A stretch of DNA of 64,000 nucleotides from Terriglobia bacterium. Its GTDB lineage: Bacteria > Acidobacteriota > UBA6911. Of this stretch, positions 13,722-23,135 are shown piece by piece (the first letter of the stretch is position 1; each line of letters starts with the position of its first letter). The translations under genes were made by a program, and so were the position numbers. The stretch is from the NCBI GenBank assembly GCA_020072565.1, contig JAIQGI010000051.1, positions 1 to 64,000 of the forward strand. Direction: 5' to 3'. Under the pieces are notes generated by a model. That model was not told where the DNA came from. It saw only the letters and a list, made by a program, of their open reading frames with translations, and ran no database searches.

Positions 13722-13755
13722 GATTTCCAATTTGTTCTTCAGGAATGGATGGATT

Positions 13756-16059
13756 ATGAGCAAACTGCTTTGCGCATTTTCATTTATTGTCGTTGCCGTC
13801 ATTTCGGTTTCTCACCCGCCGGCGGGCGCCGAACTGGCCAGCGAGGTCAGGTTCCTCCACGGGATGCCTGCGCTCTATGTAAATGGGGTGTTGACCAGCC
13901 AGGTACTGGGGTCGCCATACCGGCCCGGCCCGTCGGACTTCAACGATTTCCGCAAAGCGGGGATTTCGATATTCGACATTTATCTGCGCTTCGACTGGAC
14001 CGGCCCGGAGCAATACGATTTCACCAGGGTCGACGAGAAGGTTGAATCCTATCTCAAGATCGAGCCGAAGACTCTCTTCCTGCCGCGCATCCTGCTGACC
14101 CCGGGCCCCTGGTGGTGCAAGGCGTTTCCCAATGACATCACCATGCGGGATGACGGCAGCCCGGCCGGCATGTTCGGCCAGCCTTGCCATCCTTCGCTGG
14201 CATCGGAGAACTATCGCGAGTTGTCGCACAAGGCGATGATCGCGTTTCTCAATCACGTGGAGAGCAAGTACGGGGAACACATGGTCGGCTATCAGGTCGG
14301 GAACGGCTTCGGCGGCGAGTGGCTGATGTTCAACTCGTTCTGGGAAACCAGACCAGGCGGTCAGCCGCCCACAAGATTCGGAGTCGAGGATTACTGTCCT
14401 CCGGCGCAGGCGCTGTTCCGGATCTGGTTGAAGAACAAATACGGCAGCGTGGATCAACTGCGCCGTGCGTGGGGCAATCCACAAGTCAGCTTCGAGACGG
14501 CGACGCCCCCGAATGAGGTCGAGCGCTACAGTTCAAACCACGGCATCTTCTTCGACCCTGCGATCAGTCGGCGGGTGCCGGACTATTTTTCCTTTTTCAA
14601 TGACATGGTGTCCGACACGCTCCTCGAGAACGCCCGGTGGGTGAAGGAAATCACCCACAGGAAGAAGATCGTCGGAGCTTTCTACGGGTACTTATGGTGC
14701 AATTTCCCCAACCTGAGCGTGGTTCACAGCGGCCATCTTGGGTTCGCGAAGGTGCTCGATTCGGTGGATGTGGATTTCATCGCGAGCCCGTATACCTATG
14801 ACAACAAGCAAATCGGAGGGCCGAACAATTCCCAGACCCTTCCCGAAGCCGCTGCTCTCCATGGCAAGCTCTACTTCAATGAAGTGGACACCGAGACCCA
14901 CCTGTTCCAACGGCAATGGCGGTGGGGTGACTCCCTGCACAATCCAACAAACTTCGAAGAGACGAAGGGCCTGCTCATTCGCGATTACGCCTATACTCTG
15001 ACCAAGGGATTCGGCATGTGGTGGACCGACCTGCATGGCGGCACGTATCACGACGACCAGATCGTTCAGCTTCTGGGCCAACTGAAACAGATAGATGAGA
15101 AGTTTCTCGATGCCGACAGGAGTTCCAACGCAGATATCGCCGTCATTCTCGACGAAGCCAGCTTCACTTATTGCGGGGACGGGGAGCCGCTGTTCAACGC
15201 GCTCCTCACCGCTCAGAAGCAATGGGAGTTTGCATTTATAGGCGCGCCTTGGGATCCTTATCTGTTGACCGACATTGACAATCCGAAGCTGCGCGACTAC
15301 AAACTCTACATCTTCCTGAACACCTTCCGGGTCACGCCGGAGCAGCGCGCCGCCATCCACGCGCGCCTGAAGCGTAAGGGCGCGACGGCGATCTGGGTCT
15401 ATGCGCCGGGTTACATTGGCGAGAAACTCTCGGTCGAAAACATGCGGGCGCTCACCGGCATTCGACTGGCCGAGACCGGAAGCGCGGGCGAACTCAGAGT
15501 GGGCATAACGTCCTACAATCACTCATACACCAGATCCCTTCCCAAAGGGCTGGCTTATGGCACCGATGTGAACGTGGAAAATATCAAACGCTGGTATGAC
15601 CACCAAATCTACCTCAAGGATCCCCGGGACCCGTCGCTCAGGCGCGACCTGCCGGGATTCCGCATCAGCCCGCGCTTCTGGAGCGACGACCCCCAGGCCC
15701 AGGTACTCGGCATCCTCGCGGGCATCGATAAGCCCGGGCTGGTGGTGAAAAAACAGCCGGGCTGGACCTCGGTTTACTCGAGCGCGCCGATCCTCCCCGC
15801 TGCCCTCCTGCGCGGCATCGCGCGCGCCGCGGGATGCCACATCTACAGCGACGCGGGTGACGTGGTGTATGCCAACCGCAACTTCCTGGGCATATACGCG
15901 CCCGGCGGCGGCTCGCGCACGGTGCGGCTGCCGCGTGACCTGCGGGTGGCGAATTTGATGAACGGGCTCGTGCTTGAAGGCGGCGCCCATGAATTCCTCC
16001 TTAAACTGGCGCCAAATCAAACCGCCCTTTTCAAACTCGAAGAATCCGGGAAAAGATAG
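13756..16059 (+). CDS. GH42-like beta-galactosidase family protein
   Basis: A 767-residue exported clan GH-A protein related to GH42. The signal peptide is residues ~1-25. A TIM barrel spans ~40-400, followed by a trimerisation-like alpha/beta domain (~420-560). The canonical acid/base position reads VGNGFGGEW, with Gly where GH42 has the Glu of NE; E188 in GGEW may replace it. E376 in YFNEVDTETH is the likely nucleophile. The start at 13756 gives a clean signal peptide; an upstream ATG at 13732 lacks one. It is followed after 12 bp by the CBM9-like gene, probably one transcript. A relic of a homologous gene lies at 57716-57808. Confidence 0.82.
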   Translation: MSKLLCAFSFIVVAVISVSHPPAGAELASEVRFLHGMPALYVNGVLTSQVLGSPYRPGPSDFNDFRKAGISIFDIYLRFDWTGPEQYDFTRVDEKVESYLKIEPKTLFLPRILLTPGPWWCKAFPNDITMRDDGSPAGMFGQPCHPSLASENYRELSHKAMIAFLNHVESKYGEHMVGYQVGNGFGGEWLMFNSFWETRPGGQPPTRFGVEDYCPPAQALFRIWLKNKYGSVDQLRRAWGNPQVSFETATPPNEVERYSSNHGIFFDPAISRRVPDYFSFFNDMVSDTLLENARWVKEITHRKKIVGAFYGYLWCNFPNLSVVHSGHLGFAKVLDSVDVDFIASPYTYDNKQIGGPNNSQTLPEAAALHGKLYFNEVDTETHLFQRQWRWGDSLHNPTNFEETKGLLIRDYAYTLTKGFGMWWTDLHGGTYHDDQIVQLLGQLKQIDEKFLDADRSSNADIAVILDEASFTYCGDGEPLFNALLTAQKQWEFAFIGAPWDPYLLTDIDNPKLRDYKLYIFLNTFRVTPEQRAAIHARLKRKGATAIWVYAPGYIGEKLSVENMRALTGIRLAETGSAGELRVGITSYNHSYTRSLPKGLAYGTDVNVENIKRWYDHQIYLKDPRDPSLRRDLPGFRISPRFWSDDPQAQVLGILAGIDKPGLVVKKQPGWTSVYSSAPILPAALLRGIARAAGCHIYSDAGDVVYANRNFLGIYAPGGGSRTVRLPRDLRVANLMNGLVLEGGAHEFLLKLAPNQTALFKLEESGKR

Positions 16060-16071
16060 GGAGAAAAGAAC

Positions 16072-16776
16072 GTGAAACCACTGATATTTCTTTTTCTATT
16101 CTGCGCGTCGATGAGCCAGACCCAGGAAAAGGCCATGTTCCTGTCCTACTACGCGGAGAAGGCCGTCGAGCCGACGGCCGATCCGGATTCGGCGTTTTGG
16201 AAGGGCATTCAGGGCGTGGTCATCGATAAGAGCGTTCTCGGCCCCGCGATGCCCCAGTTTCGAGCCGAGGTGCGCTCGCGCTGGACCAAGGATTACGTCT
16301 ATTTCCTGTTCATCGGCCCCTATGAGAAACTCACGCTGAATCCGAACCCCGACACCCGGAACGAAACCTACAGGATGTGGGAGAAAGACTGCTTCGAGGT
16401 GTACCTGGGCGCCGACTTCGAGCATACGAACCGCTACCGCGAATTTCAGATGTCACCCCAGGGCGAGTTCCTCGATCTGGATATCGATTCGACAAAGGAC
16501 AAACCGGGATTCAACGGCGAGCAGGCCTGGAACTCCGGTATGCAGGTCAAGGCGCGCGTCGATGAGAAAAGGAAAATCTGGTACGGCGAGATGCGGATCC
16601 CAATCATTGCAGTAGACAAGCGCCCGGCGCAGGCCGGCAACGAGATGCGGATCAACCTGTATCGGCAGGATGGAGAGCCCCCGAACCGGGACTTTCTGGC
16701 CTGGCAGCCCCCCGGCGTCTGGAATCCTCATCACCCGGAGAAGTTCGGAACGCTGCGGCTCGTGAACGCCCGCTGA
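16072..16776 (+). CDS. CBM9-like carbohydrate-binding protein
   Basis: A 234-residue protein of the carbohydrate-binding family 9-like (DOMON-like beta-sandwich) type. A short signal peptide is followed by the domain, with the characteristic WEKDCFEVYLGADF motif near residue 105 and W-P-P-G-V near the end. The start is GTG at 16072 with AGGGAG at about 8 nt, 12 bp after the GH42-like stop, indicating translational linkage. It has no catalytic module, so it probably binds the saccharide or shelters products for its partner enzyme in the periplasm. A hairpin terminator follows at 16792. Confidence 0.85.
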   Translation: MKPLIFLFLFCASMSQTQEKAMFLSYYAEKAVEPTADPDSAFWKGIQGVVIDKSVLGPAMPQFRAEVRSRWTKDYVYFLFIGPYEKLTLNPNPDTRNETYRMWEKDCFEVYLGADFEHTNRYREFQMSPQGEFLDLDIDSTKDKPGFNGEQAWNSGMQVKARVDEKRKIWYGEMRIPIIAVDKRPAQAGNEMRINLYRQDGEPPNRDFLAWQPPGVWNPHHPEKFGTLRLVNAR

Positions 16777-16791
16777 GGCTTCCAGTGACGA

Positions 16792-16824
16792 AACCACGAA
16801 ACGCACCAAAGCGCTTTCGTGGTT
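16792..16824 (+). terminator. Hairpin after the CBM9-like gene
   Basis: AACCACGAAACGC at 16792-16804 pairs with GCGCTTTCGTGGTT at 16811-16824, with one bulge, 16 bp past the stop codon. There is no long T tract, only CCTTT. It sits between converging genes and may insulate both. Confidence 0.55.
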
Positions 16825-16917
16825 ACCTTTCAGGAAGCGAATGCTTTTACGAGGTCCGACACCGCTACCAAGCGTTACACTGGTTGACTGTGGACCAGTA
16901 AAACCATTGCCGGCACG

Positions 16918-18288
16918 CTAAAAGATCGTCCAGTGATACATGACCGGCACTGATTGAGTGGGGCCGAAGCCGGCCACGTCGTAGGAAGCGACAATCTTGA
17001 AATCGCCAACCGTCAGGGAAGGTACTCGCCATGAGTACGTGCAGGTGCCGCCTCAGCCAAACTGGAAGTTGCCGCTGGCCACCTGCCGATCACCCCTGTA
17101 AATGACAAATTTGGGAGGATTGCGGCGGTCGGGGGTCATGACCGTATACTCCTCCCCTGCCGCTCCCTTCAAAACGTAGCTTAGCAGCAGCGAGCTCCCT
17201 TTTCGTTCCGCTCTTACACTGCTGACAAACGGAGCGCCGATCTGCAGGCGGTTGGGAGCGCCCGCGGCCACCGTGATCCGCGAAGTTTCGGAGGTGGAAA
17301 CACCTGTCAGCACCGGCTTGTCGGCGGCAGGCACCAGGTACACCGTCTGGATGCGATAGTTGTCCGCTGGCAGAGTGACGGTCCGACCCGGCGATTCCAG
17401 GATTGCCAGTCGTGCATCCCCTTGCAGGATCAGCCGCCGGACGAACTTCCCATCCAGGGTTACCTCTGCCATGGGAGAGCGGTGTTCCGTGAGCGTGGCG
17501 GTCACGAGCGCAACCCCGGATGCCGCTCCAAAGGCGAAGGCGAGCTGGTACTGATTCCCGCCTATGAAAAGGATCCTGGGAAGCGCCATCGGGCGGTATG
17601 TGAGCGCTTTGGGGTCGCCGCTGCGGGCCACCGGCGTGATCAGGAACTTGTCCTGGGCATCGAACTGACCGTCGAGGTTGTCCTGAACCTGGAAAAGCCA
17701 CTTCCGTCCCTGAAGCTCGATCTCCCCCTCATAGAGCGACCGGATTCCTATGGAGGTCGAGTTCTCACCGAGAAAATAGAAAGGCTCCAACAGGTAGCGG
17801 CGATTGATGCCGTTGTTGCCGAGGTCGAGCCGGACACCTCTGAAGTAGGCAAAATATCCGGACGGCCCGCGCACCATTACCGACTTGTAGACGCCTTGAG
17901 GGTCATCCGTCAAATCCAGGTTCTGGTTGAGGTCGAGGTAGAGAGTGCGACTGGTGAAATTGACGGCGAAGCCTATAAAGTCGTTTTGACCGGGACCGAT
18001 CTTGAGCGCCCGGCGTATGACCTTGTCGTTTCCCCCGAAATTGGGCTCCCTGCGGAATTTCACCTCTTGTTTGCTGAGCTCGATCCTGGTGGCCAAGGAG
18101 CTTTTTTCCGCGTACTTGAGCGAAACTGAAAGCGGCGCGCTTTTTGCCGCCGTTTGAGACCGGACCGGAGCCTGAAACAGGCCCGCACCCAATCCCGGCA
18201 TCAACAGCAGGACACAACCCGGGACCAGGGCTGAACGATGAAGCTTGCGCAGACGACCGGGCCGAACCTTTGCAGTTCTGAAGTTCAT
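16918..18288 (-). CDS. Secreted beta-rich protein, candidate selenoprotein (in-frame TGA)
   Basis: Conventional reading stops at TGA 17053-17055 after 411 residues (ending ASGNFQFG). The same frame then continues 44 codons, GGTCTYSWRVPSLTVGDFKI onward, to TAG at 16918-16920. The extension completes an Ig-like beta-sandwich begun near residue 350 (SLLLSYVLKG, PPKFVIYRG), and about 70% of its codons end in G or C, like a real gene. With Sec at 412 the product has 456 residues and a U-G-G-T-C motif. A 6-bp hairpin lies 14 nt after the TGA. Residues 1-45 include a signal peptide. DLNQNLDLTDDP resembles a calcium-binding loop. The start has AAGGGGG at 8 nt. The alternative is a recent nonsense mutation. 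No family name is known to me. Confidence 0.7.
17022..17055 (-). promoter_or_regulatory. SECIS-like hairpin just after in-frame TGA
   Basis: On the minus-strand RNA, UGA (17055-17053) is followed by 14 nt, then GUACUC (17038-17033), a loop AUGGC, and GAGUAC (17027-17022): a perfect 6-bp stem. The loop begins 20 nt after the UGA, inside the 16-37 nt range known for bacterial SECIS elements. Bacterial SECIS loops usually have G in the first two loop positions; here G is third and fourth, unless the A-C closing mismatch is counted as stem, giving UGG. Confidence 0.45.
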
Positions 18289-18342
18289 GGTCGCAACCCC
18301 CCTTATAGGGTTTTACGTGCAGTGCCGCTCGATCTTTCCAAT

Positions 18343-18371
18343 ATTTTAAGCGGCAACCCTATGGAATCCAA
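18343..18371 (-). promoter_or_regulatory. Sigma70-like promoter for the candidate selenoprotein gene
   Basis: On the minus strand TTGGAT (18371-18366) is followed by 17 nt and TAAAAT (18348-18343). The start codon at 18288 lies about 48 nt beyond the expected transcription start. The -10 box matches five of six consensus bases; the -35 box matches three. Confidence 0.5.
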
Positions 18372-18439
18372 GGCGAACCGGAAAATTGGCGTCGGCCGGC
18401 GTTCTTCGGCGTCCAAAAATAGAATTTGGATCAGACTCA

Positions 18440-18477
18440 CGCGGATCAACGCAGATGCCGATCCGCGTTGATCCGCG
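18440..18477. repeat. 13-bp perfect inverted repeat (CGCGGATCAACGC)
   Basis: CGCGGATCAACGC at 18440-18452 is exactly complementary to 18465-18477, with a 12-nt loop. It lies 48 bp past the symporter stop and upstream of the candidate selenoprotein promoter, so it can separate the two transcripts. There is no T tract. It is the short-period palindrome type seen in other gaps. Confidence 0.65.
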
Positions 18478-18525
18478 CAAATCCCACCTCCTGGCTTCGA
18501 GCTTTCGGCTGCCCGTCAGGCGGCA

Positions 18526-20370
18526 TTATCCTCTGAAGTACAGGTAGGCCCCGATGATGCAGGTCAGAACTAACGCGGAAGCAGCCACCTCCTGCCAGCT
18601 CCAGCTTGCGCGGGTGCGTATGCGGTCTTCATGCGTGACGGTGCCGTAAGTAATGCTCTGTATCTTCACGTAGTCCGGCTCGGCCGTCATATAACTCACC
18701 ACGACCATGACGACCGCCGATACAATCGCAATCAGCACGCTGAAGTACTGGAAATAGATGTTGTTGATGATCCAGAGGAACGAGCCGGGCGTGTAGCCGT
18801 TTTCAAATCCCTTCAGGCCCAGCGTCACCGGCGTGTCCACCAGCATGCGGGACAGGCCCATCACAAAGCCCACCACCATGGCCCACAGACATCCCTTGGC
18901 GTTGAGGCGCTTAAAGAAGACGCCGAAGAAGAACACCACGAAAATCGGCGGCGCCAGGTAACCTTGCACCGTTTGCAGATAGTTGTAGAGACCGGATGCG
19001 CCCTTGATGACGGGGATCCATGCGAGCGCGATCAGCACCATGATGCCGGTGGCGATGCGGCCCGTGCGCACCAGGTCGTGTTGCGTGGCCTTGGGCTTCC
19101 ACTTCTCATAGAGATCCACTGTGAATAGCGTGCTGCACGCGTTAAACACACCTGCCAGCGAGCCCATGAGCGCGGAAAGCAACCCCGCGACCACGATGCC
19201 GCGCAGGCCCGGCGGCAGGAGGTATTGCACCATCAAGGGAAACGCCCCCTGTGCCTCTCTCCTTACGATCTGGCCGTCTGCCCCGATCAGGATGTTGTGC
19301 AGCTCGGGAATTTTGCCGCTCTTCGCCAGCGCGAAACAGATCAGTCCCGGAATGATGAACAGGTAGACCGGAGACAGCTTGAGGAAGCCGGCGAAGATAC
19401 TGCCGCGCCGCGCCACGGTCTCGTTGGGGGCGCCCAGGGCGCGCTGCACGATGTACTGGTCCGTGCACCAATACCAGAGACCTATGATGGGCGCGCAGAA
19501 CAACATGCCCAGCCACGGGTAGTGGCCGTTGAAGTACCAGGCCTGCTTCACGATGTTGCCGACCGTATCCTTTTCCAGCACCGGCGCCCACGTGCCCTGC
19601 ACGCCCGGAGGGATCAGCGGTTTCCAGAGGTTGAACATGTCCGATCCGCACCAGTAGCGGAGCTCATTCCAACCACCAAGCCTGTAAAGCCCATAAACCG
19701 TCAACAAGCCTGATCCCAGGATGAGGACCGTGACCTGCACGGCATCGTTATAAGCCACGGCACGCATGCCGCCGAGCATCGTGTAGAGGCCCGTCAGCAC
19801 GATGACCAGCACGGACCCGATCCAGAAGCTGTCGATCTCATAACCTCCGATATTCAGGCGCATCTCCGGGAGTAGTGTGCCGAAAACCACCCCGCCCGCG
19901 AAGATCCCCACGGCGATCTTCGACACCACGAATGTGATGAGCGAGACCACGGAGAGGACGTAGCGGGAGCCGGAGGAAAAGCGCCTCTCGAGAAACTCCG
20001 GCATCGTGAACACGAGCGCGCGCGCATAAAAGGGAACGAACACCCACGCCAGCACCAGCAGGCACCAGGCATGCAGCTCATAATGAGCCATCGCCACGCC
20101 ATCCGTGGTTCCGGACCCGGCCAGGCCCACGACGTGTTCGGACCCGATGTTGGAGGCGAAAATGGAGGCGCCGATGATCCACCAGCCGAGGTTGCGGCCG
20201 GCGAGGAAGTAGTCGGCCGCGGTGTCTTTGCTTTTGCGGACGACCCACCATGCGACGCACAGCAAAACCGTGAAGTAGAGCGCAATCATCACCCAGTCGA
20301 TGCTCGTGATGTGCGACTTGAAGGGAGTAACCTGGAGCGAAAGAAAGAATGTGGGGGACAAAATCTTCAT
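18526..20370 (-). CDS. Sodium:solute symporter (SSS/SLC5 family)
   Basis: A 614-residue inner-membrane carrier of the SSS family, close to SGLT-type bacterial sugar transporters. About fourteen membrane segments are visible. The early DYFLAGRNLGWWIIGASIFA block is the family signature of helix 1-2, and SEHVVGLAG with helix-8 motifs belongs to the sodium-binding region. The long loop WKPLIPPGVQGTWAPV and the WYWCTDQYIVQRALGA segment are typical of the SGLT branch. It is likely to import a monosaccharide released by the neighbouring GH127 enzyme, whose gene is upstream on the same strand after a 320-bp gap. The start ATG at 20370 has only a weak ribosome binding site. Confidence 0.92.
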   Translation of the reverse strand: MKILSPTFFLSLQVTPFKSHITSIDWVMIALYFTVLLCVAWWVVRKSKDTAADYFLAGRNLGWWIIGASIFASNIGSEHVVGLAGSGTTDGVAMAHYELHAWCLLVLAWVFVPFYARALVFTMPEFLERRFSSGSRYVLSVVSLITFVVSKIAVGIFAGGVVFGTLLPEMRLNIGGYEIDSFWIGSVLVIVLTGLYTMLGGMRAVAYNDAVQVTVLILGSGLLTVYGLYRLGGWNELRYWCGSDMFNLWKPLIPPGVQGTWAPVLEKDTVGNIVKQAWYFNGHYPWLGMLFCAPIIGLWYWCTDQYIVQRALGAPNETVARRGSIFAGFLKLSPVYLFIIPGLICFALAKSGKIPELHNILIGADGQIVRREAQGAFPLMVQYLLPPGLRGIVVAGLLSALMGSLAGVFNACSTLFTVDLYEKWKPKATQHDLVRTGRIATGIMVLIALAWIPVIKGASGLYNYLQTVQGYLAPPIFVVFFFGVFFKRLNAKGCLWAMVVGFVMGLSRMLVDTPVTLGLKGFENGYTPGSFLWIINNIYFQYFSVLIAIVSAVVMVVVSYMTAEPDYVKIQSITYGTVTHEDRIRTRASWSWQEVAASALVLTCIIGAYLYFRG

Positions 20371-20690
20371 AGCGTTGCCCGTCTCTCAGCAGTCATTCGT
20401 TCGATGAAGTTTTTCGGTTTATCCAGCCGGTTCCAGTGACGCGACACCGGAATCCCCGGCGGATGCTGCGTATCATACCCTAGAGTTAGTAAACATACTT
20501 TAAGAATCACGGGCCGGGTGGAGATTTGTTTTTCACGCATCCGGATGCGGATGCAAATTACTTGATCCTCATCAGTTTGACGCAGAGGATGCCGTGCATC
20601 CCCGGCCTCAATCCCGAACTATCCGCGCTCTCAGCGTGGGGCTTTTGCTTTTCATTTATATTTTCGAGACCGAAAAACAAGTCCGGGCAG
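20371..20690. other. 320-bp leader region between GH127 and symporter genes
   Basis: No gene. The minus strand contains an AT-rich patch near 20478-20515 with a TATGAT-like -10, but no convincing -35 at the right distance. GCATCCGGATGC near 20538 is a perfect 12-bp palindrome and a candidate operator, followed by a direct GGATGC repeat. Nothing else was seen. Confidence 0.4.
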
Positions 20691-23135
20691 TTATCGGTTC
20701 ACCCGCCACTCGATGATGCCGCATTCGTACCAGGTCAAATCCTGCGTCAGATAATTGCCGTCCGGCGGGCCGAGGGCTCCCTTCTTGTAAAGCTTTCCCT
20801 GGAGCTGGATCTCGAGGCGCAGGCTGGAGGTTGTCACCGGCTGAAAGGCCGCCTTGTTGAAGACATCTTTGGCAACCGGATAGGGGCCTGATGCGCTTAC
20901 GGGCTTCCAGGTGTCCCCGTCCTTATACAGCAAGCGCCAGCTTTGCGGCAGCACGCAGACCTGCTTGTCGTCCTTCCAGTAGACCTCGACGGATGAGACT
21001 TTGGCCGGTTCTGCAAAGTCGTACTGGACCCAGGCGCGATCGCCCGATTGGGGGTGCAGCCTCAGGAACGGCGCCGACCCGTCCTCAGAATTCACCGGTT
21101 CGAGTTGATCGTATATGGCGCTGATGGCGCCGCTCCCATCCTGGGAACTCGGGTAGAATCGCCGTTCGATCGTCGGCGGCTTATTCCCCGGGTAGTTCTC
21201 GGCAACGGTGCCGTTGCCGCACGAAGAGGTTGCGCGGCTGGTAGAGGCGATGGTCGGCTCCGGCGCGATCCCGGCCTTCGACCGGTCGCGCGCAAGCCAG
21301 ACAGACATTTCGCCCTGACTCCGGTTGCCGAAAGCGTAATACGGCACCGCCGTGAAATTCTGGGTTTGCATGACGATGGAAGTACGATCCACACCTCGGC
21401 GCAACGCGATCGCCTTCCCTGTGATCATGCCGATGCCCCCAAGCAGGTTCTGCCGGTAAGCGAATTCGAGGCCGGCGTTCTCTGGCAGCAGCAGGTTGAA
21501 AACGCCGCCGGGGTTGTCGGTTTGCTCGGCGCAGAAAACCAGCGGGCCACGCTCGAGCGCCACCATGCCACGATCATCTGCAACCTGGTCCGAGGCCACC
21601 ACTCTGCGCACCGGCATGGGGAGATTGAGCTCGATTGTATCGCCGGCCTTCCATTCCCGTTCGATCCGTGCGTAGCCCTTCTCCACCTCGTACGATGCTG
21701 TGGCGCCGTTGATCGTCATCGATATTTTCTGTTCAGGAGCAGGCAGGTATCGATACAGCAGACCAGGCATCGGCTGATTTCGGGCCCAGCCTGGAATGCG
21801 GACGAAGACGGCGAATTTCTGTGGCTTCTGCGGATTGATGATCAGCCTGGTGGCTCCATCCCATGGGTAACGGGTTACTTGTGCCACGGTCAGGGGCACG
21901 CCGCCCAGTTTGACCTCAGCCTTGCTGCCGACAAACAGATTTATGTACAGGCTCTGATCACCTTGGGCGTAAATCAGGCCCCCCAATTGGGGCAAGAGGC
22001 GGGCGAGATTGGGGGGGCAGCAGTTCGGCCCGAACCAGCGCTGCCTGGCGAAACCGCCGTATGTTCTCAGCGGCGCCTGATACAGATAGGTATCGCCGCT
22101 CAGCGACACGCCCACGAGGAACGCATTGTAGAGCGTGCGTTCCAGGACGTCGATGAACTTGGCATCCTGGCGTAGCAGAAAGAGCTTCTGGTTCCACAAA
22201 GTATTGCCGTAGGCGGCGCAGATCTCATTCCAGGCGCTGAGATTGGGCAGGTCGTAATCGTCGCCGAAATCCTCTTCATCCCGATAGCTGCCGACGCCGC
22301 CCGTGAGATAGGTCCTTTTTGATACCGCGTCTTCCCAGATGCGCTCGTCCGCCCGGGCATATTCGGAATCGCCTGTCAGTGCCGCAATGTCGGTTAACGG
22401 CATATAGAGGTACGTGGCTCGCACGGCATGGCCGATCGCCCGGGTTTGAACTTTCACCGGCTGGTGATCCTGAGCATAAGGTCCGTATAAGCCGGGCCGG
22501 TCCGCAGGATCGCCGCGCGCATCGAGGAAGAACCGGGCCAAGTTCAGATACTTCGTGCTTCCGGTGCAGCGATAGAGGCGGATGAGACCGATCTTGATCC
22601 CCTCGTGATTCGCAATGTCATGCCGCCTGCCGGGCCCAAAGACCGAATCCAGGTCATCGGCGATCTCTATTGCCACGTCCAGCAGCTTACGGCTTCCCGT
22701 GGCCTCGAAGTAAGCGACCGAAGTTTCCAGGAAGTTACCGGCCCAGAGCCCGTCGCCGTCTCCCTCAGTGGACCACTTGTGCTTCCGGCTGCGAATCTCG
22801 GCGATGATTCTGTCGAGCGTTCCATCGACGCGCTTCCTCAGCGCAGCATCCGGATTCCTGGCGAGAACATAGCAGGCTGCTTCGATGAGTCGTAGATCGG
22901 GGCTGCGGCCCGTCTTGTCATATCGGTCCAACAAGCCAGGGATCGAGACCGTGCGATTGCTTTCCAGACGCGGAGTCCAGAATGCGTCCGTGATCTGCAC
23001 GTCCTTGTACGAAACCGGCGAGATCCGGTAATCGGGCTTGCGTTGTGAAGTCTGCGGATAAGCGGAGAACGAAAAAGCGATTGCTGCGATTCCGGCGATT
23101 TTGAGCCACCAATATCTCATGGATAGTTTCACCAT
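20691..23135 (-). CDS. GH127 beta-L-arabinofuranosidase-like enzyme with discoidin-like tail
   Basis: An 814-residue exported enzyme and the most typical GH127 of the window. A signal peptide precedes residue ~28. The barrel carries GGVGSYRDEEDF with E288 as probable acid/base, NEICAAYGN with E304 and C306, and NCCPPN with C372-C373, reproducing the zinc-thiolate site known for Bifidobacterium HypBA1 (E338, C340, C417, C418). A beta-sandwich region follows (RIPGWARNQPMPG). The last ~120 residues form an F5/8-type-C-like module (LPQSWRLLYKDGDTWKPV) shared with the DUF5695-like protein at 57821-61060. The start is uncertain between ATG 23135 and ATG 23120; neither has a good ribosome binding site. 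It likely cleaves terminal beta-linked arabinofuranose or a related pentose. Confidence 0.92.
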   Translation of the reverse strand: MVKLSMRYWWLKIAGIAAIAFSFSAYPQTSQRKPDYRISPVSYKDVQITDAFWTPRLESNRTVSIPGLLDRYDKTGRSPDLRLIEAACYVLARNPDAALRKRVDGTLDRIIAEIRSRKHKWSTEGDGDGLWAGNFLETSVAYFEATGSRKLLDVAIEIADDLDSVFGPGRRHDIANHEGIKIGLIRLYRCTGSTKYLNLARFFLDARGDPADRPGLYGPYAQDHQPVKVQTRAIGHAVRATYLYMPLTDIAALTGDSEYARADERIWEDAVSKRTYLTGGVGSYRDEEDFGDDYDLPNLSAWNEICAAYGNTLWNQKLFLLRQDAKFIDVLERTLYNAFLVGVSLSGDTYLYQAPLRTYGGFARQRWFGPNCCPPNLARLLPQLGGLIYAQGDQSLYINLFVGSKAEVKLGGVPLTVAQVTRYPWDGATRLIINPQKPQKFAVFVRIPGWARNQPMPGLLYRYLPAPEQKISMTINGATASYEVEKGYARIEREWKAGDTIELNLPMPVRRVVASDQVADDRGMVALERGPLVFCAEQTDNPGGVFNLLLPENAGLEFAYRQNLLGGIGMITGKAIALRRGVDRTSIVMQTQNFTAVPYYAFGNRSQGEMSVWLARDRSKAGIAPEPTIASTSRATSSCGNGTVAENYPGNKPPTIERRFYPSSQDGSGAISAIYDQLEPVNSEDGSAPFLRLHPQSGDRAWVQYDFAEPAKVSSVEVYWKDDKQVCVLPQSWRLLYKDGDTWKPVSASGPYPVAKDVFNKAAFQPVTTSSLRLEIQLQGKLYKKGALGPPDGNYLTQDLTWYECGIIEWRVNR

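Follow-up and report, generated by a model that had tools for sequence, protein, structure and literature searches.

A predicted exported selenoprotein family with an Ig-like domain and a conserved hairpin after an in-frame UGA, in an acidobacterial genome and several other phyla

Prokaryotic selenoproteins were mostly discovered through homologues that carry cysteine (Cys) at the position of selenocysteine (Sec). For nearly all selenoenzymes, homologues with Cys outnumber those with Sec (PMC13188914), and the deep-Sep method may miss families that lack them (PMC12013277). The family described here shares with the 119 families of the prokaryotic selenoprotein inventory of May 2026 an in-frame UGA, a downstream hairpin, Sec machinery in the genome and a Cys near Sec. 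However, none of the 119 has the motif GUGGTCxYSWRVP or is described as Ig-like with a seven-helix form, and the inventory holds no evident equivalent (PMC13188914). Unlike selenoenzymes generally (PMC13188914), the family is almost without Cys homologues. The GUxG motif of protein DG (NF049953) is compatible with the GUGG found here, but in an NCBIfam scan the NF049953 model did not match our protein even at E <= 1. Pfam and NCBIfam gave no match, apart from a sub-threshold hit to Big_3_5 (E 0.043), and Pfam returned nothing above cut-off for ten relatives. The passages located in the main text of a paper on selenoproteins of Planctomycetes do not name the family (PMC4807772), and no description was found in the literature on selenoproteins of these phyla, subscription papers, preprints and supplements lying outside the scope of that search. 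The family numbers well over a hundred genes, and no catalogue searched holds it. Having few Cys homologues and a hairpin that can miss standard filters would explain its absence from Pfam, NCBIfam and the current inventory.

The gene lies in a window of 64,000 nucleotides, the whole stretch of DNA analysed, from a Terriglobia bacterium (contig JAIQGI010000051.1). An open reading frame on the minus strand (17053-18288) starts with ATG, encodes 411 amino acids and ends at a TGA (17055-17053). An earlier note on this DNA had proposed that TGA as a candidate Sec codon, and its description of the site proved accurate. The frame runs on through 44 open codons to a TAG at 16920-16918; the GC content at third positions, put at about 70% past the TGA, is 70.5% after and 71.8% before it; and the residues noted as FQFG-U-GGTC do read NFQFG-U-GGTC. 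A 6-bp hairpin (17038-17022) starts 14 nt past the TGA with its loop at 20 nt, as claimed, and reading through in frame gives the proposed 456 residues with U412. Taking the comparative evidence together, we assign a probability of about 0.95 to the reading that the gene encodes a 456-residue exported selenoprotein with Sec at UGA codon 412. The features are as follows.

17056..18288, minus strand: selenoprotein gene, codons 1-411; a hydrophobic segment (residues 19-39), then a beta-rich domain with the DLNQNLDLTDDP motif
17053..17055, minus strand: UGA, inferred to be selenocysteine 412; TGA in the same column in 5/5 genome copies and 107/107 pattern matches
17022..17038, minus strand: SECIS-like hairpin GUACUC-AUGGC-GAGUAC, with covariation in 185 sequences (5' arm 17033-17038, loop 17028-17032, 3' arm 17022-17027, all minus strand)
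16921..17052, minus strand: read-through extension of 44 codons, GGTCTYSWRVPSLTVGDFKIVASYDVAGFGPTQSVPVMYHWTIF, final strands of the Ig-like domain
16918..16920, minus strand: TAG stop of the full-length protein
16921..17232, minus strand: C-terminal Ig-like domain, residues 353-456, with U412 and C416 (AlphaFold2 model and VIA-align)

Within the window the hairpin has no second exact copy. A comparable hairpin follows 57 of the 1806 TGAs of the window, at least 44 open codons follow 495, and 13 TGAs combine a hairpin with an open tail. Folding of the single sequence gave no support for the hairpin (z +1.26); the 51 nt including the UGA, folded alone, prefer another structure, and an Rfam scan of the window found no match. 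The case from the window alone is weak, little more than chance, and it is the comparative data that lift the selenoprotein reading above chance. These 13 TGAs would suit an ordinary stop, the open stretch having arisen by chance or being what is left of a longer ancestral gene in decay, as would degraded family copies on two other contigs (C41 and C8). The five family copies of the genome argue against it. They lie on contigs C51 (the window gene), C90, C61, C56 and C19 of an assembly of 7.46 Mb in 135 contigs, the other four being 46-64% identical to the window protein, and each has exactly one TGA, at the aligned codon (5/5). In pairwise comparison 21-30 of the 44 tail residues are identical, and most differences outside the hairpin fall at third codon positions (114, 84 and 164 at positions 1, 2 and 3). 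Decay predicts random changes rather than the invariant TGA that was also found in 107/107 relatives, and we consider an ordinary stop extremely unlikely.

The relatives were collected with a DNA pattern, G-[TGN]-G-[xG]-T-C-x-Y-[S/T]-W-R-V, in which the Sec position may be TGA, TGC, TGT or TGG. In a collection with one genome per species it matched 97 stretches, mostly from Planctomycetota and Verrucomicrobiota; among the groups in the record titles listed are Planctomycetota, Verrucomicrobiota, Lentisphaerae, Hydrogenedentota, Sumerlaeota, BRC1 and Riflebacteria. Together with the copies of the own genome these are 107 distinct genes, all 107 with TGA. Homologues thus extend past the TGA, which the earlier note had set as a test, in 5/5 genome copies and 107/107 pattern matches. 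The idea that the window protein is an orphan, which had arisen because a full-length profile search of contigs matched nothing close, was dropped in view of these 97 loci. A second search used a profile of 115 positions in which the U site was treated as Cys, so that it is blind to TGA. Of 392 Planctomycetota genomes, 35 gave a total of 65 matches, and 61 of these matches contain exactly one internal TGA. In the phylum to which a Verrucomicrobia bin belongs, 7 of 338 genomes gave 11 matches, each with one TGA (11/11).

Residue 412 aligns with UGA or Cys, as the earlier note had proposed, with few exceptions. U occupies the column in 210 of 212 profile matches across the family loci, the other two carrying one Arg and one Tyr, and Cys occurs in two distant relatives. 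Four Planctomycetota matches have no stop, and three of them were read: one has Tyr (L183, EYEYGGRFGHC) and two have Cys (L184, also recovered as L168, profile-aligned with i-E 1.6e-8; L185, aligned by eye). Cys relatives are hence rare and distant. The Arg of L131 (YGRNWMCQYRW) and the Tyr of L183 indicate that Sec can be lost without turning into Cys.

That UGA is read through in so many family genes could also reflect its reassignment to Trp or Gly in the lineage. Reassignment would, however, not need a hairpin, and UGA occurs in each gene at the U site alone, while TGA still terminates 38 of 103 family ORFs, so that the code is unchanged. In the paralogue on C61, TGA stands at the U site and also ends the gene. 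We give reassignment a negligible chance. On the comparative evidence, codon 412 (UGA) functions as a sense codon in this genome and in several phyla that keep UGA as a stop, mostly with Sec machinery.

The hairpin, 14-30 nt past the TGA, forms all six pairs in 107/107 genes; the search pattern itself fixes some of its bases, which is allowed for by a resampling control and by the profile-derived set. When synonymous codons were redrawn from each ORF's own usage, on average 5.9 of 90 sequences (maximum 14/90) kept six pairs. The codons are accordingly skewed: Tyr is TAC in 91/91 (expected 49), the third base of Arg, which is nearly always CGA, is A in 82/91 (expected 16), and Val is GTA or GTG in 91/91 (expected 43). 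Codon +5 ends in G in 87/90, and the partner of this G is the first base of the Pro codon. Where Ser is replaced by Thr (ACG), Arg changes to CGT and the pair is restored; pair 18-26 is U-A in 98 genes, U-G in 5 and, by compensatory double change, A-U in 4. Among 76 profile matches outside the pattern, 53 have perfect in-register stems, and these represent 19 different sequences (GCUCUC/GAGAGC, GGCCAC/GUGGCC and GUGCGU/ACGCAC among them), whereas shuffling of the arms gave a mean of 16.8 (maximum 25). In all, 22 distinct perfect stems occur among 185 sequences. Since the stems covary across different peptides, it is the RNA structure itself that is conserved, and the sequence comparison shows that selection maintains the hairpin after the UGA as an RNA element, in this genome and in several phyla.

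For bacterial SECIS elements the bSECISearch model sets a stem of 4-16 bp, a loop of 3-9 nt, 16-37 nt between UGA and loop, a G within the first two loop positions and a minimum free energy <= -7.5 kcal/mol, rules that a subset of such elements breaks (PMC13188914). Judged by hand against these constraints as given in that paper, the window copy resembles the bacterial consensus in size (6-bp stem, 5-nt loop, loop 20 nt past the UGA) and narrowly misses two of the four constraints, as the loop AUGGC has no G in positions 1-2 and the energy is -7.1 kcal/mol. The loop is GUGGC in 59 of 90 relatives. The family differs from the consensus in its RUGGM loop and in a stem that is almost identical in most members.

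The earlier note had also asked for selA, selB, selC and selD, and the genome holds them all: two selA, two selB and two selD above cut-off, and one tRNA-Sec (73.5 bits, anticodon TCA). A second tRNA-Sec was considered and rejected, as there is one convincing gene and the other inspected Rfam matches are ordinary tRNAs according to ARAGORN. On contig C19 a single minus-strand run comprises selA2, the gene of a SelD-AhpD fusion, selB2 and the genes of a NapH-type ferredoxin and of a 700-residue paralogue of the window protein. The fusion protein has AIRS, AIRS_C and CMD domains and is 567 aa long when counted from the start codon chosen; the product of selB2 has the SelB winged-helix domain. 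Akin to this, ten family copies occur in G443, a Planctomycetota bin that includes a contig of chromosome scale; seven lie no more than ~12 kb from its selA, and the bin also encodes a SelD-AhpD fusion of the same type (47.5% identity over its length). Across the family, 39 of the 97 motif loci, each spanning up to ~8 kb, contain sel genes, and selA is present in 45 of 50 motif genomes. It was not found in the other five, and many of these 50 are draft MAGs, so that the selA-less cases may be gaps in draft genomes. Among the 392 Planctomycetota, selA occurs in 29/32 genomes with a TGA-bearing match versus 217/360 without (Fisher p 2.6e-4). As family genes so often lie beside sel genes, Sec decoding in parts of Planctomycetota and related phyla may mainly serve this family.

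Hairpins after stop codons can promote read-through. One here might thus stimulate insertion of an ordinary amino acid and set the ratio of a short to a long protein, the short product of the window gene being 411 aa. Such a short form would lack the last three Ig strands, and neither the tight linkage to selA, selB and selD nor the co-occurrence with selA would be expected; Cys in distant sense-codon relatives likewise points to Sec. We regard this explanation as very improbable. The selenoprotein reading of the earlier note is supported, and the three checks that it had set as refuting all came out in its favour.

Two different selA/selB/selD sets were noticed in the genome (L031 at G000:C19:220000-236500; L001, L009 and L025). 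The SelA of C19 is 48% identical to a planctomycete SelA versus 43% to the other SelA of its own genome, and its SelD has the same SelD-AhpD fusion layout as the planctomycete protein. This fusion, in which SelD is joined to an AhpD-like (CMD) domain and carries a short N-terminal extension rich in Cys, recurs beside selenoprotein genes (L031:9739-11439, minus strand; L182:14449-16050, plus strand; L135:5177-6814, minus strand). In the G443 bin, seven copies surround selA together with double-cubane-reductase-like and activase-like genes and a SelD-AhpD fusion (L181 and L182, G443:C1:5040001-5072000).

With a full-length profile the window genome was the only match among 396 genomes of its own phylum, and the domain profile gave the same result. 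One carrier in 396 suggests horizontal gain followed by duplication. Contamination as the origin of the second sel set was considered and is not indicated, since the tetranucleotide frequencies of C51, C19, C90, C61 and C56 correlate at 0.84-0.92 with those of the contigs of the first set (C3, C23 and C13), though a closely related genome in the bin may still be its source. At slightly less than even odds, we propose that a large, nearly Sec-obligate exported Ig-like family, of which a genome often has several copies, is served by its own operon (SelA2, SelB2, SelD-AhpD) and its own uniform hairpin class, and that this operon was transferred together with the family genes into a genome that already had selA, selB and selD. 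Two parallel Sec-decoding systems would result, which may recognise different hairpins. The presence of two sel sets in one genome offers a way to test whether variants of SelB recognise different classes of SECIS.

In the proposed mechanism, which follows established bacterial Sec biology, Sec-tRNA(Sec) with anticodon UCA would be made by SelA with selenophosphate from SelD and delivered by SelB bound to the hairpin, probably by the SelB2 encoded beside the paralogue. Read-through would add 44 residues that supply the three final strands of the C-terminal Ig-like domain; a product without Sec would be missing them and probably misfold. In an AlphaFold2 model built from 47 sequences (pLDDT 85.8), the window protein consists almost entirely of beta structure; its N-terminal part, which includes the hydrophobic segment, is poorly ordered. 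Residues 353-456 are modelled as an Ig-like sandwich with its last three strands after U412, in line with the earlier claim that read-through completes such a domain. The pLDDT of this domain is mostly ~90 and lower at the U412 loop, as would fit a mobile loop. VIA-align relates the domain to Ig/FnIII domains with Z 8-9 and an rmsd of ~2-3.8 over 73-95 residues, among them KIR3DL1, the C-terminal part of PorU, SiiE and the MG domains of alpha-2-macroglobulin. The fold is the same, but identity is only 7-19% and a common fold shows no function; to our knowledge, none of these proteins has a Sec site. A fold search of the PDB gave no match at E <= 0.001 for either model, the membrane part being barely covered with nothing informative listed. 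With regard to the SoxYZ carrier proteins, which have a C-terminal GGCGG swinging arm, Foldseek gave a weak match to 2oxh chains (E 0.11, TMt 0.39); the U loop of our protein is internal.

Two copies of the genome run 312 and 294 codons past the TGA into a membrane domain (~290-310 residues), and this long form has about seven C-terminal membrane helices. The family would accordingly comprise a free exported short form and a long form tethered to a seven-helix membrane domain. Family genes are presumably annotated as cut at the UGA, whereby the Sec motif is lost and nearly half lose the whole membrane domain. Degraded membrane-form copies without the UGA site (L204 and L205, G000:C41:41000-44000 and C8:4500-8000) look like relics.

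The function is probably that of an exported Ig-like domain with a redox or ligand-binding Sec-Gly-Gly-Thr-Cys loop. Tentatively, and at somewhat less than even odds, U412 and C416 in this flexible loop may bond reversibly as a selenenylsulfide or bind a soft ligand, in either case outside the cytoplasm. The site could be coupled to an electron chain, in which the NapH-type ferredoxin encoded nearby may take part. Recurrent neighbours across the loci are double-cubane-cluster reductases, acyl-CoA dehydratase activases, NapH-type ferredoxins and a DVU_1556-like methyltransferase, a hint at low-potential electron supply. The clustering of these genes with SelD-AhpD fusions, and the near absence of Cys in place of Sec, would also suit a real Sec without a redox role. 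At the cell surface the UGGTC loop would then bind a soft ligand such as selenium, mercury or copper and thereby feed or protect the Sec pathway. The U...C spacing, however, fits a selenenylsulfide too, and we consider a role without redox chemistry less likely than not.

Beside the window gene, reading by eye (13732-23135) noticed no sel gene, and the neighbours look like carbohydrate metabolism, with a large hydrolase-like ORF at 13732, a transporter-like ORF at 18526-20370 and a glycosidase-like ORF at 20691-23135. Among the loci L108, L093, L147, L077, L099 and L145, a divergent subfamily reads GUGFSCSATW and has hairpins like GGCCAC-AUGGC-GUGGCC, and others read FGUDGTC or GUGGGF; these may be separate families.
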